Assembly: GCA_030684815.1 (NCBI GenBank)
Contig: JAUXXQ010000041.1
Coordinates: 1-40,152 of the forward strand
Direction: 5' to 3'
From: Methylobacter sp.
Lineage (GTDB): Bacteria > Pseudomonadota > Gammaproteobacteria > Methylococcales > Methylomonadaceae
Length of the DNA: 40,152 bases
Shown here in pieces: positions 25,759-40,152 of the stretch. The first letter of the stretch is position 1; every line of letters starts with the position of its first letter. The notes beneath the pieces were generated by a model, which saw nothing but the letters and a program-made list of their open reading frames with translations, did no database searches and had not been told where the DNA came from. Position numbers and translations under genes: made by a program.

Positions 25759-26154
25759 ATGACAATGCATTCAATCATAAAGAAAATACTGCTAATCGTT
25801 TTGGTGCCGCTGCTCACTGCTTGCGTGCATTATCCAAGGCAGCCGGTCTATTATCCCGCCCCGGCTTACCGCAGCGCCTATATTATTGAGCAGAGAAGCT
25901 ATTATGACCCAAGACCGCCGCGTTATGAAAGGCGTTATAGACCACCCGATAGGGTCTATTTACCGCGCCCTCGCCCACATCAACACAACATCAGCCCCCG
26001 TTGGCACAATAATGCCCCAAAACGCCCGCATGAAGGTAGACCACCCGATAGAGTCTATTTACCGCGCCCTCGCCCACATCAACACAACATCAGCCCCCGT
26101 TGGCACAACAATGCCCCAAAACGCCCGCATGAAGGTAGAAGAAACAGGCGTTAA
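25759..26154 (+). CDS. Small Pro/His/Arg-rich lipoprotein with a duplicated segment
   Basis: A 131-residue product with a lipoprotein signal (KKILLIVLVPLLTAC, lipobox LTAC, lipidated Cys22), so it should be anchored to the cell envelope. The mature part is rich in Pro, Tyr, Arg and His. A 33-residue unit beginning RPPDRVYLPRPRPHQ occurs twice in a row (about residues 61-93 and 94-126), and the protein ends in RRNRR. The family is unknown. Its basic, His-rich character might suit binding of metals or acidic polymers, but that is only a thought. The gene is divergent from ppnN and convergent with the large regulator. Confidence 0.7.
   Translation: MTMHSIIKKILLIVLVPLLTACVHYPRQPVYYPAPAYRSAYIIEQRSYYDPRPPRYERRYRPPDRVYLPRPRPHQHNISPRWHNNAPKRPHEGRPPDRVYLPRPRPHQHNISPRWHNNAPKRPHEGRRNRR
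25939..26136 (+). repeat. Direct 99-bp tandem duplication inside the lipoprotein gene
   Basis: Two adjacent 99-base units, 25939-26037 and 26038-26136, differ by only about two substitutions (G to A early in the unit and T to C in the ACAATAATG / ACAACAATG part). The period is a multiple of three, so the frame is kept and a 33-residue segment is doubled. The near identity points to a recent event. Confidence 0.9.
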
Positions 26155-30315: not shown

Positions 30316-32511
30316 ATGTTAATGGAAACATTGCTGTCTACCTTCGATGCGCTTTCCTCGCGTCCCCTGCAACGGGTGAAAGAAGCCATTAGCCGCCAAA
30401 AAGACGGACAGCCAATGACCCATACCAGCCAGCCAGTCCCACTGGCGTTCCAGTTCCAGTTATTTGCCGACGGCCGCTACTGTATCCCTTATATGGATGA
30501 TGCTATCCGCACACTTTATCGAATCGCCCCGGAACACAGCGACCAGGAGCTTGGCAAGCGACTGCTGGCTATGGTACATCCAGGCGATCTGAATAAACTC
30601 AAGGCTTCGTTCAACCTATCAGCCCGAAATTTAACGCCGTGGCATGAGGAATACCGTTTGCAGTTTGACGATACGCCACCCTGTTGGCTATCCGGCACTG
30701 CCCTGCCCCAACACCAGGCAGACGGCTCGGTGATTTGGCAGGGCATTTTGACTGACATCACCCGGCAAAAGCAGGACGAAGCCAACCTTCGTATCGCCGC
30801 CACCGCCTTTGAATTGCAAGATGCCATACTGGTCACCGACGCGGATGGGGGCATCCTCAAAGTCAACCAGGCCTTTACCCGTATCACCGGCTACAGTGCC
30901 GACGAGGTTATTGGGCAAAAGCCCAGCATGCTCAGTTCCGGCCTGCACAATAAGGATTTTTATGCCGCCATGTGGGAGAGCCTCAACCGCACCGGCAACT
31001 GGCGAGGCGAAGTATGGAACCGGCGCAAAGACGGCGAAATCTATCCCCAATGGATTATCATCACCGCAATCAAAGACGCCACAGACAAAATCAAGCACTA
31101 CGTCGCCTCTTTTTCCGACATTAGCTCCCGCAAAGCCGCTGAAGAAGAAATCAGGCAAATGGCCTTTTATGACCCGCTGACCCAATTGCCCAACCGTCGT
31201 TTATTACAGGAACGGCTTAAACACAGCATCGATGTAGAGCGGCGCGACAACAAGCGCCTGGCCATATTGATGCTCGATCTGGATCGCTTTAAAAACGTCA
31301 ATGACAGTTTCGGCCATTTGGCGGGTGACGAATTGCTGCAACACGTGGCGGCACGGATCTTAGACAGGCTACGGGATGTCGATATGGTGTCGCGTTTAGG
31401 CGGTGATGAATTTGTAGTCTTACTGGAAGACATAGCCCACCCGGAAGATGCGGCACGGATAGCAGCTGAAATTATTGCCGAATTAAGCCATCCGTTTCAA
31501 CTTAGCCAATGCAGCGATGTGCAAATCGGCACCAGCATCGGCATCAGCCTGTATCCCGAACACGGCGACACTGACGAAATACTGCTAAGTTGCGCCGATA
31601 CGGCGTTATATCAAGCCAAAGAGCAGGGGCGCGGCTGCTATGCCTATTTTTCTGCCGAACATACCCAAGCCGCCCGCGAACGCATTGCGCTGGAAACCCG
31701 TTTGCGCCACGCCGTAGAACAACAGCAACTGCGGGTTTTTTATCAACCGCAAGTGGATATCGAAAGTGGCCGCATTGTCGGTGCAGAAGCGTTGGTACGC
31801 TGGCAAGATCCCGTAGCAGGCTTGGTTCCGTCGCTACACTTTATCGCCCTTGCGGAAGAAAGCGGGCTGATTTTTAAAATCGGCGAATGGGTGTTGCGGG
31901 AAACCTGTCGCCAAGGCCGCCAGTGGCAGGATGCCGGTTTGCCGCCGCTAAATTTGGCCGTCAACATTTCCCCAAAACAGTTTCAGCGCGGTGACTTAAC
32001 CGCGTTGGTTATTGAAGCGCTCAACGAAACCGGTTTTCCGGCGCATCGCTTGGAGCTGGAACTGACCGAAAGGGGGCTGATGGACAAACAGACCGATGTG
32101 TTGGCGCTACTGAACAAACTACACGCACTGGGTGTGCGCTTGACCTTGGACGATTTTGGCACCGGTTTTTCATCATTGGCTCATCTCAAGCATTTTCCGC
32201 TGGATACGCTGAAAATAGACAGCAGCTTTATCGCTGACATTCCTCACGCCAAAGATGACATGGAAATTACCGCCACCATCATTGCGATGAGTCGGATTCT
32301 AGGCTTCAAGGTGCTGGCCGAGGGCGTGGAAACACCGGAACAACTGGCTTTTTTGCAGGAAAAAAATTGCAACTTGTATCAGGGCTACCTCAAAAGCCCC
32401 GCCGTATCCGCACAAGTTTTCACCACACTGTTACATAACCAAAAGGCAGCGGACAGGCTCCATGAATTCAAACTGCGGCCACTTCATCGGGCTATGGAAC
32501 TGACCGTATGA
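30316..32511 (+). CDS. PAS-PAS-GGDEF-EAL cyclic di-GMP turnover protein
   Basis: A 731-residue cytoplasmic protein with both synthesis and breakdown modules for cyclic di-GMP. Residues 45-150 are a degenerate PAS-like domain and 160-275 a clear PAS/PAC (ATAFELQDAILVTDADG, NQAFTRITGYSADEVIG). The GGDEF domain has an intact GGDEF motif at 362-366 and an inhibitory-site RDVD at 353-356 with the usual five-residue gap. The EAL domain keeps EALVRW at 491, ELELTE, LDDFGTGFSSL, LKIDSSFI and EGVET, so the hydrolase site looks complete. There is no membrane segment. GGGGG six bases before the ATG is the ribosome site. It is followed by a terminator and then rpoS. Confidence 0.95.
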   Translation: MLMETLLSTFDALSSRPLQRVKEAISRQKDGQPMTHTSQPVPLAFQFQLFADGRYCIPYMDDAIRTLYRIAPEHSDQELGKRLLAMVHPGDLNKLKASFNLSARNLTPWHEEYRLQFDDTPPCWLSGTALPQHQADGSVIWQGILTDITRQKQDEANLRIAATAFELQDAILVTDADGGILKVNQAFTRITGYSADEVIGQKPSMLSSGLHNKDFYAAMWESLNRTGNWRGEVWNRRKDGEIYPQWIIITAIKDATDKIKHYVASFSDISSRKAAEEEIRQMAFYDPLTQLPNRRLLQERLKHSIDVERRDNKRLAILMLDLDRFKNVNDSFGHLAGDELLQHVAARILDRLRDVDMVSRLGGDEFVVLLEDIAHPEDAARIAAEIIAELSHPFQLSQCSDVQIGTSIGISLYPEHGDTDEILLSCADTALYQAKEQGRGCYAYFSAEHTQAARERIALETRLRHAVEQQQLRVFYQPQVDIESGRIVGAEALVRWQDPVAGLVPSLHFIALAEESGLIFKIGEWVLRETCRQGRQWQDAGLPPLNLAVNISPKQFQRGDLTALVIEALNETGFPAHRLELELTERGLMDKQTDVLALLNKLHALGVRLTLDDFGTGFSSLAHLKHFPLDTLKIDSSFIADIPHAKDDMEITATIIAMSRILGFKVLAEGVETPEQLAFLQEKNCNLYQGYLKSPAVSAQVFTTLLHNQKAADRLHEFKLRPLHRAMELTV

Positions 32512-32532
32512 TAAACCAAGGCCGCTGCTGAA

Positions 32533-32559
32533 CAGGCGAAAGAAATCGCCTGCATTTTT
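32533..32559 (+). terminator. Intrinsic terminator between the GGDEF-EAL gene and rpoS
   Basis: CAGGCGA (32533-32539) pairs with TCGCCTG (32546-32552) around AAGAAA and is followed by CATTTTT. It lies 21 bases after the GGDEF-EAL stop and 45 bases before the rpoS ATG, so rpoS most likely has its own promoter or depends on read-through. Confidence 0.6.
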
Positions 32560-32604
32560 CACACGAAAAACAATAACACTGAACAATGTAAATAGAGAGG
32601 GATC

Positions 32605-33591
32605 ATGAAAACAGAATTACTTGAGCAACTGGATGGTGAGGCCTGTGTATTATTTGACGAAGATTTTTCTTATGACAATGAAGACTTGCTTACTTTAGCC
32701 ACTGCCGAGACATTACCGGATAGTAATGAAAGAAACGCGGTAAAACCGCAACCGGACAAAAGCATCGACACTACCCGGGTTTATTTGAATGACTTGGCGC
32801 GTTCGCAATTACTGACCGCCGACCAAGAAAAACTTTATGGCGCTAAAGCGTTACAAGGCGATGAAGGCGCACGCCAAATCATGATTGAAAGCAATTTGCG
32901 CCTTGTGGTTAAAATTTCCCGAAGCTATCTGAACAGGGGGTTGCCATTATTGGACTTGATTGAGGAAGGCAATCTGGGCTTGATCCGTGCCGTTGAAAAA
33001 TTCGACCCTGAGCGCGGTTTCAGGTTTTCAACCTATGCCACCTGGTGGATCAGGCAAACCATTGAGCGGGCGATCATGAACCAGACCCGAACCATTCGCC
33101 TGCCCATTCACATTATTAAAGAAATGAATGCCTATCTGAGGGTGCAACGTCATTTAGCGCAGGCGCTTGATTATGAACCCAATGCTGAAGATATCGCCCG
33201 TTATTTGGACGTATCGGTCAATAAAGTTGAGAAAATGCTCAAACTCAATGAGCGGGTGACCTCAATCGACCTGCCGAGTGGCAAAGAATTTGAGCAGCCG
33301 TTGATTGAATCGGTTTTCGACGCTGAAAGCTTGTCGCCTGCTGAAAAAATACACCGGGACAGCATTAACACCCAGATTACCGAATGGTTGTTTGAATTGC
33401 CTGAAAAACAACGGGAAGTCATTTGCCGCCGCTATGGGCTGTGCGGCTATGAAGGCTCAACCTTGGAACAGGTCGCTAAAGAACTTGGCGTGACCCGTGA
33501 GCGTGTCAGACAAATCCAAATGGATGGATTGAAAAGGATGAAAGAGATTCTGGAAGACAGCGGCTATTCTGTTGACGCTATTTTTAATTGA
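32605..33591 (+). CDS. rpoS: RNA polymerase sigma factor RpoS
   Basis: Sigma factor for stationary phase and general stress. The 328-residue protein has a short acidic N-terminus, then region 1.2 [21 protein letters not shown]. The region 2 core is [68 protein letters not shown] distinguishes RpoS from RpoD. Region 4.2 ends with [18 protein letters not shown]. The ribosome site GAGAGGG lies five bases before the ATG. Its upstream neighbour is a GGDEF-EAL gene rather than nlpD. A stem-loop covers the stop codon. Confidence 0.93.
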
Positions 33592-38300: not shown

Positions 38301-40152
38301 ATGACTGATTCAATGGATAAAAAACTGAAAGAAAAACGCGACAATTTCGATGTTGATCTGGATGCCATGCAGGATGAGGCGGAACCGTCTTTTCTTTCGG
38401 ACAATGAGTTTCAGATTGAAGATGATGCCATTGATAGATTACTGATGAATACTGGCTTTGATGCCGATAACCCGTCAATGCAAGCTGGCGCAAACCCACG
38501 TACGGATAGTGAAGAAAATGCCGATACGCATGATGAATTGGACGAATTTTTAAATTTTGGCAATGATCTTGACAGGTTACTGATGGACATCCCATTGGGT
38601 TTAGATGATGTGCAGCCGCAAACTAACGAAGAAATGGATGCACTGCTTAAAGAACTGGATGACATTCCAGACGTTAGCGACGCGCATCAACCCGAGCTAC
38701 CGGCTGAGGGCTTATTTGCCCATATTGACACGGCTTTATCGGACGCAATGGCTGACGATTCGGGCACTGACGAAGCATTAACTGAATCAAGCTGGCTAGA
38801 GAGTGACGAGACTGCAGATTTGATGACTGCCGCCGATGCCTTGCCCGACCAAATGCTAGATAATGGAAATGAACAGCCTATCCTGACGGAAGATGAAACA
38901 GACGAATTTTCAGACTTTAGCGATTTTAATGAGCCTGACATACAAACGGAAACCGACGCTGAAACATCGGCACCGGCCATAGAAGAATTGCCTTATGCCG
39001 ATGCCCTGCCCGACCAAATGCTGGATGATGGAGCTGGACAACCTATCCTGACGGAAGATGAAACAGACGAATTTTCAGACTTTAGCGATTTTAATGAGCC
39101 TGACATACAGACGGAAACCGACGCTGAAACATCGGCACCGGCCATAGAAGAATTGCCTTATGCCGATGCCCTGCCCGACCAAATGCTGGATGACGGAACT
39201 GAACAACCTATCCTGACGGAAGATGAAACAGACGAATTTTCAGACTTTAGCGATTTTAATGAGCCTGACATACAGGCGGAAACCGACGCTGAAACATCGG
39301 CACCGGCCATAGAAGAATTGCCTTATGCCGATGCCCTACCCGACCAAATGCTGGATGACGGAACTGAACAACCTATCCTGACGGAAGATGAAACAGACGA
39401 ATTTTCAGACTTTAGCGATTTTAATGAGCCTGACATACAGGCGAAAACCGACGCTGAAACATCGGCATCCGCCTCAGAAGATTTGCCTGCTGCTTTCACG
39501 GAACCAACAGACGACAGTTCCGGTTTCAATGAACCCAACTGGTTGCAGGATGATGAAGCCGAACCGGCCTCAGAATCCAACTGGCTACAGGATGATGAAG
39601 CCGAACCGGCTACAGAACCCAACTGGTTGCAAGATGATGAGGCCGAACCGGCTACAGAACCCAGCTGGCTACAGGATGATGAAGCCGAACCGGCAACAGA
39701 AGAAGAGTTGCCTGCTGCTTTTGCGGAGCCAACAGACGACAGTTCCGGTTTGAATGAAACCAACTGGTTGCAAGATGATGAAGCCGAACCGGCGACAGAA
39801 GAAGAGTTGCCTGCTGCTTTCGCGGAGCCAACAGACGACAGTTCCGGTTTGAATGAACCAAACTGGTTGCAAGATGATGAGGCCGAACCGGCTACAGAAC
39901 CCAACTGGTTGCAAGATGATGAGGCCAAACCGGCTACAGAACCCAGCTGGCTACAGGATGATGAGGCCGAACCGGCGATAGAAGAAGAGTTGCCTGCTGC
40001 TTTCGCGGAGCCAACAGACGACAGTTCTGGTTTGAATGAACCCAACTGGTTGCAGGATGATGAAGCCGAACCGGCCTCAGAATCCAACTGGCTACAGGAT
40101 GATGAAGCCGAACCGGCTACAGAACCCAACTGGTTGCAAGATGATGAGGCCG
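38301..40152 (+). CDS. Very acidic protein with two layers of tandem repeats (partial at right edge)
   Basis: An uninterrupted frame from the ATG at 38301 to the window end, 617 codons with no stop. The first ~177 residues are acidic and non-repetitive, with motifs such as AIDRLLM and ELDEFLNFGNDLDRLLM. Four 55-residue repeats follow (38832-39491). Then come at least eleven 14-residue modules with a conserved Trp (consensus NWLQDDEAEPATEP) broken by a spacer segment containing LPAAFAEPTDDSSGLNE. Asp and Glu dominate, Cys is absent and there is no signal peptide, so the visible part should be intrinsically disordered. I do not recognise the family; a folded domain may lie past the edge. No good ribosome site precedes the ATG, and Met5 is an alternative start. 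Confidence 0.85.
   Translation, partial: MTDSMDKKLKEKRDNFDVDLDAMQDEAEPSFLSDNEFQIEDDAIDRLLMNTGFDADNPSMQAGANPRTDSEENADTHDELDEFLNFGNDLDRLLMDIPLGLDDVQPQTNEEMDALLKELDDIPDVSDAHQPELPAEGLFAHIDTALSDAMADDSGTDEALTESSWLESDETADLMTAADALPDQMLDNGNEQPILTEDETDEFSDFSDFNEPDIQTETDAETSAPAIEELPYADALPDQMLDDGAGQPILTEDETDEFSDFSDFNEPDIQTETDAETSAPAIEELPYADALPDQMLDDGTEQPILTEDETDEFSDFSDFNEPDIQAETDAETSAPAIEELPYADALPDQMLDDGTEQPILTEDETDEFSDFSDFNEPDIQAKTDAETSASASEDLPAAFTEPTDDSSGFNEPNWLQDDEAEPASESNWLQDDEAEPATEPNWLQDDEAEPATEPSWLQDDEAEPATEEELPAAFAEPTDDSSGLNETNWLQDDEAEPATEEELPAAFAEPTDDSSGLNEPNWLQDDEAEPATEPNWLQDDEAKPATEPSWLQDDEAEPAIEEELPAAFAEPTDDSSGLNEPNWLQDDEAEPASESNWLQDDEAEPATEPNWLQDDEA
38832..39491 (+). repeat. Four tandem 165-bp units (55 residues each)
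   Basis: Units start at 38832, 38997, 39162 and 39327, each with GCCGATGCC. Each encodes ADALPDQMLDDG, then QPILTEDETDEFSDF, then NEPDIQTETDAETSAP. The period of 165 keeps the reading frame. Copies 2-4 are nearly identical at the DNA level; copy 1 and the end of copy 4 are diverged, as expected of an array growing in its middle. Confidence 0.92.
39537..40152 (+). repeat. Array of 42-bp Trp modules in higher-order blocks
   Basis: At least eleven copies of a 42-base module (AACTGGTTGCAAGATGATGA core) are present. They come in runs of four, one, three and at least three, separated by a spacer block that encodes LPAAFAEPTDDSSGLNE. The array continues past the window edge. Differences are mostly silent (TTG/CTA, CAG/CAA, GAA/GAG) or swap Asn for Ser before the Trp, so the protein sequence is under constraint. 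Confidence 0.9.

Follow-up and report, generated by a model that had tools for sequence, protein, structure and literature searches.

The open reading frame at the end of the analysed stretch of DNA (here called the window, 40,152 nucleotides of a Methylobacter genome) is most likely the 5' part of a gene for a large protein with a C-terminal SPOR domain, and its sequence features support well that this is a single-pass inner-membrane SPOR protein with the N-terminus in the cytoplasm. We take the host genome to belong to the type I methanotrophs, in whose envelope the protein is apparently a component yet to be characterised, and the nearest named records belong to Methylobacter in the order Methylococcales (L005; L006, which is M. 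tundripaludum OWC-G53F; L007). As to its role, we favor with a probability of roughly 55% a septal or polar scaffold, in which the SPOR domain would be positioned at septal glycan and the acidic tail would serve as a multivalent docking chain; both the localisation and the scaffolding are what we infer.

The window corresponds to contig C94 of the source genome, and the frame (38301-40151, forward strand) stays open up to the end of the contig, which cuts it within the repeats. A genome search with the C-terminus of a relative recovered the other gene half on contig C95, which is open from base 1, begins within the same repeats and closes with a stop codon. This half encodes first additional Trp modules, then a transmembrane helix followed by a predicted helical segment and a basic linker, and finally the C-terminal SPOR domain. 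A DNA pattern describing the Trp core occurs 20 times genome-wide, 11 times at the end of C94 and nine times on C95, always on the forward strand, and the reversed pattern, used as control, has no occurrence in the whole genome. As every Trp core lies at one or the other contig end and none on the reverse strand, the contigs most likely broke inside one gene. The ends share no exact overlap of 10-599 bases, and the 617 and 885 codons (Table 1) are the two parts seen, with any gap between the contigs uncounted. An artefact of the contig ends is unlikely, because the flanking genes match those of relatives; the gene that comes after the C95 half, 5'-nucleotidase-like as read by eye, is the same as in relatives.

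Table 1. Coordinates of the gene part and its repeats within the window
Feature	Position	Strand	Remarks
Gene of the SPOR protein, 5' part	38301..40152	+	617 codons; rest most likely on C95:1-2655 (885 codons and stop)
Head motif DAIDRLLMNTGFD	38424..38462	+	most widely shared cytoplasmic element of the family; 38 of 45 sequences
Second head-like motif LDRLLMD	38568..38588	+	similar copies in relatives
55-residue unit 1	38832..38996	+	contains DEFSDFSDFNEPD at 38901-38939
55-residue unit 2	38997..39161	+	TRF
55-residue unit 3	39162..39326	+	TRF
55-residue unit 4	39327..39491	+	last residues diverge
14-residue Trp-module array	39528..40152	+	core WLQDDEAEPA; cut by contig end

An earlier note on the window had described an acidic N-terminus, four 55-residue repeats and an array of Trp modules, and this layout is confirmed: the four units measure 165 bp each (TRF score 1181), and the array contains 11 Trp cores, ten of which belong to complete 14-mers. 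The cores are spaced by 14 or 33 residues, the larger spacing arising where 19 additional residues, such as EEELPAAFAEPTDDSSGLN, come between two modules, and the recurrence of the Trp module is far beyond chance. The note had also regarded the module differences as mostly silent and as a sign of selection on the protein. Both points stand for the 14-mers, for which the pooled pairwise pS is 0.417 and the pN 0.065, but not clearly for the 55-mers, where the excess is weak (pS 0.105, pN 0.047) and 22 synonymous pairwise differences compare with 37 non-synonymous ones; in neither set are the pairs independent. Opposite the repeats, a 275-residue open frame on the reverse strand (39323-40150) seems to be a side effect of the codons that make up the repeats. 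Elsewhere in the window, two 99-bp tandem copies (25938-26139, 98% alike) overlap a 131-codon ORF at 25759-26154, and a PAS-GGDEF-EAL protein (30316-33591) adjoins a factor of the sigma-70 family that has regions 1.2 to 4.

The cytoplasmic part as far as it is seen comprises 1,216 residues with 392 Asp/Glu, 26 Lys/Arg, a net charge of -366, 29 Trp and no Cys. No recognised domain was found along these about 1,200 residues, which are probably disordered, judging by their composition. The acidic part is followed by a basic cluster, one hydrophobic segment, a helical segment predicted at low confidence on the relative L005, a basic Lys/Pro/Ala linker and the SPOR domain. Within the 15 residues flanking the membrane helix, this protein has four Lys/Arg before and none after the helix, and the number before is at least that after in 42 of 43 sequences with a helix, the exception being G135 with two versus three; this bias points to a cytoplasmic N-terminus. 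The apparent absence of a signal peptide agrees with the hydrophilic N-terminus; the internal location that it had been taken to indicate holds for the repeats, but the protein crosses the membrane further on. Calcium or metal binding by the repeats had also been proposed, for which their high density of Asp/Glu speaks, as had a role as spacer for a C-terminal enzyme beyond the edge. We consider these ideas together very improbable, and the enzyme version is contradicted by the C95 part: the gene part in the window has no match to a calcium- or metal-binding family at E up to 1 and the cytoplasmic part lacks Cys in the portion seen, although loose binding of ions may still occur, and past position 40152 the C95 part provides a transmembrane helix, a linker and SPOR, the latter being the only Pfam domain found there.

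The C-terminal domain scores 36.3 bits against PF05036 in the C95 part, and 41.1 bits in the genome search, which is above Pfam's curated cut-off of 21. A SPOR fold is predicted on the relative L005 only, in a model of the C-terminal part that was built from only three sequences and has low overall confidence (mean pLDDT 45); its SPOR block reaches a pLDDT of about 68-79 and displays the E-H-E-E-H-E order expected for SPOR. With this model, the six best Foldseek matches are either SPOR-type chains, with the structures 1x60, 6i05, 6ztg and 6i09 among them (best E 9.4e-3), or 6ozd, an exported protein with a match of its own to the SPOR profile, and no match was obtained at E up to 0.001. The glycan-contacting Gln of the domain (Gln270 in P. 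aeruginosa RlpA), which is preferred but neither universal nor a strict criterion, is Asn in all 17 members of the A1 alignment, composed of the SPOR block of this genome and 16 chosen among relatives, which weighs against the role favored here. The resident RlpA, as read by eye, has Arg at the equivalent position.

A PF05036 search identified five SPOR proteins in the genome, all above the cut-off. Since the other four are placed by gene neighborhood as FtsN, DamX, DedD and RlpA, the present protein is the fifth. The neighbor gene names (argS, folC, cvpA-purF and so on) were read by eye from the sequences, and the adjacency of damX and aroB in E. coli is the sole neighborhood order that was verified. 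The resident FtsN owes its name to its position after argS, because its TIGR02223 score of 66.5 bits is under the cut-off of 107.65. The resident DedD is found between folC and cvpA-purF and scores 30.4 bits with the DedD model, under the cut-off of 150, while the resident DamX, with an AAA-like and a SPOR domain, has aroB and hemE as its neighbors, and a gene of its own encodes the resident RlpA, which scores 171.4 bits to TIGR00413 (cut-off 82.15). Each of these identities was tried for our protein and rejected. For FtsN, the C95 part has no TIGR02223 match, L005 reaches 20.1 of the 107.65 bits, and the position after argS is taken; for DamX and DedD, the aroB-side and the folC/cvpA-purF positions are held by other SPOR proteins, and no AAA domain is present here; for RlpA, the C95 part has no DPBB match. 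An assignment to HubP/FimV was rejected as well, with only SPOR in the C95 part, no match over the cut-off in the window part, and a separate FimV in the genome. That FimV scores 90 bits (cut-off 43.45), and with FimV present the idea that our protein replaces it is rejected. Its frame (L116, on G000:C72) contains recurring acidic motifs of the SSFS type, for example DFDLSSFSVEL and NFDLSSFSLEM. A defence system was considered and rejected, as PADLOC gave no hit with an E of 0.01 or less.

A query with the 177 N-terminal residues matches 25 of 61 relatives, among them all 23 of the genus. With E up to 1e-12 as the limit, the SPOR-block profile has matches in 142 of the 201 family genomes (116 of the 159 high-quality ones, and 23 of 29 genera), where weak matches within the family may partly be other SPOR proteins. 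In the order sample 83 of 151 genomes match and in the class sample five of 232, namely the source genome and G032 of the family and three weak ones (G303, G373 and G350). Of the latter, G303 has a different architecture, and G373 possesses the acidic part, the membrane helix and SPOR, so that the same plan may also exist outside the family. Second matches to the profile (G001:C61:12611-12862, G004:C178:773-1045 and G405:C362:10356-10616, in frames of 199, 324 and 323 aa) are possible paralogues. The locus usually has a GcvR-like gene upstream (27 of 31 loci tested) and the nucleotidase downstream (19 of 31), counts that are affected by loci cut at fetch or contig ends and by a nucleotidase that is truly elsewhere in some genomes. 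The frame is intact in homologues that carry few repeats or none, and no stop codon occurs just past the window edge; the earlier note had named a broken frame in repeat-less homologues, or such a stop, as making a functional role unlikely. Among literature mostly outside subscription journals, no such protein was apparent from titles and the beginnings of abstracts on SPOR in methanotrophs or with acidic cytoplasmic repeats, and PMC12918733 contains SPOR only in its reference list.

Before the membrane helix, the fraction of Asp/Glu is 0.23-0.35 in a first set of sequences with a helix and 0.19-0.32 in eight further ones. Such a tail might act non-specifically, as an electrostatic or entropic brush (a crowder, spacer or counter-ion buffer) for which only charge and disorder matter and whose repeats drift by slippage. 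High charge is indeed retained while sequence and length vary widely, and tandem DNA repeats expand easily. Against this explanation, which we think is unlikely, stand specific motifs beyond composition: of 20 same-genus genomes, 16 contain SDFSDF and 11 contain SDLIQD, compared with at most three for any 6-mer in 20 shuffles. This count excluded the head and juxtamembrane parts and covered 20 of the 23 same-genus genomes, omitting G003, G016 and G022, in which the gene is split across contigs. The head pattern, in 38 of 45 family sequences versus 0.9 expected in shuffles, argues in the same direction, and further patterns recur in that set, DEF[SAG] in 34 sequences (9.2 expected), FDI[TSA] in 31 (1.1 expected) and the QDDE pattern in 18 (1.5 expected). 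The set of 45 includes two pieces each for G000 and G003, plus other partial frames; for 18 further loci, a script found no frame in seven, and eight of the remaining 11 entered the motif count, from which the distant G303, G373 and G052 were left out, and G153, whose frame the script had missed, was read later. These patterns, like those for the Trp counts, were devised after reading the sequences, which makes the same-genus 6-mer count the less biased one; motif sharing is partly common descent, which shuffles do not model and which the 6-mer count cannot separate from selection. With this qualification, the motifs shared among relatives support the earlier suggestion of short linear motifs in an acidic chain.

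The repeats themselves differ between lineages. There are 12 and 17 Trp in the two parts from this genome, ten in the nearest relative G005 and 0-2 in other same-genus sequences, and same-genus relatives have Leu, Met or Ile at the Trp position of the same motif. Relatives possess their own arrays in the gene, of 99 bp (L005), 261 bp (G012), 147 bp (G001), 108 bp (G036), 111 and 87 bp (G153), 93 bp (G035) and 132 bp (G029), and 23 of the 24 TRF periods listed for arrays of relatives are divisible by three, so the arrays are mostly in frame. Independent Trp-acid repeats of different sequence occur in L128 (G153) and L097 (G035), orthologues from another genus (DDDGWITGDEDD; DDDWMKQMEDLDEE).

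Some relatives have lost parts of the protein or the gene itself. In G026 (L100), G031 (L155) and G065 (L156), the acidic part and the membrane helix (read by eye in the latter two) are kept at the same locus without SPOR, for which there is no room ahead of the nucleotidase gene. In G114 the gene has disappeared, its two neighbors being at most about 125 bases apart, and such a gene is also missing next to GcvR in G062, G127 and G145; eight genomes without an A1 match were examined in total (seven of the family and G039 of another), and six of them were read at the locus. Tail and helix thus persist in places where SPOR is missing, which counts against a purely SPOR-driven role, as targeting by SPOR is then dispensable in some relatives; nor is the protein itself universally needed. 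The SPOR-less relatives, which retain the head motif, and the many others with short tails without long arrays also fit the idea that the core function resides in the membrane helix and the head and FDI motifs, for example by activating a peptidoglycan synthase, a role that has been proposed for DedD and DamX, with SPOR being accessory and the arrays dispensable. We give this idea little credence, in view of the retention of SPOR in most family genomes at the cut-off used and of arrays that were built in several lineages.

In the favored scaffold, the SPOR domain would bind peptide-stripped glycan at the division septum, as SPOR is described to bind denuded septal glycan in the part of PMC6895207 available to us, and would thereby concentrate the protein there. 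The cytoplasmic tail would act as a flexible chain with many docking sites: its short acidic-hydrophobic motifs (IDRLL..GF, DEFSDFSDF and [W/L/M][L/I]QDDE) may be recognised by some cytoplasmic component of the division or polar machinery, and the number of binding sites would be set by the array length, which could shift by in-frame recombination. A more far-reaching version, which we put forward tentatively, is that of a fifth kind of SPOR protein, largely of one methanotroph family, that forms a septal or polar hub of an origin independent of HubP, with a multivalent docking or condensate-forming tail whose motifs have been re-amplified time and again in various lineages and which, together with its membrane anchor, works even after loss of SPOR. 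The natural variants (short, long, SPOR-less and lost) make the roles of repeat number and SPOR targeting directly testable.

Among the known SPOR proteins, DamX shares the cytoplasmic N-terminus, one membrane helix, the periplasmic linker and the C-terminal SPOR domain, and the cytoplasmic part of E. coli K-12 DamX is Asp/Glu-rich too (0.32), but just 105 residues precede the helix there, at a net charge of -10. The resident DamX differs by its AAA-like domain and its location beside aroB, away from the present gene, which encodes no AAA domain. FtsN and DedD are also inner-membrane SPOR proteins, but those of this genome have their own genes and only 37 and 11 residues, respectively, before the helix, while RlpA shares the SPOR domain and differs by its DPBB transglycosylase domain. 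In outline the protein resembles HubP/FimV without being one; HubP/FimV, according to the portions of PMC8789113 and PMC12918733 that were accessible, combines a peptidoglycan-binding domain outside, one membrane helix and a large acidic cytoplasmic region. Our protein has acidic repeats as read directly from the sequence, and these may recruit clients. In HubP, LysM is needed for polar targeting and the partners bind mainly to the acidic cytosolic modules (PMC8789113, in the portion seen), and the repeat number varies between related species (PMC12918733, likewise). HubP/FimV differs in having LysM instead of SPOR, the opposite order and a C-terminal TPR (FimV) domain. The protein could thus work like HubP/FimV, with a wall anchor, one membrane helix and an acidic cytoplasmic tail, SPOR standing in for LysM and the orientation being opposite, and, if the hub reading is true, it would represent a second possible route to a HubP-like scaffold.
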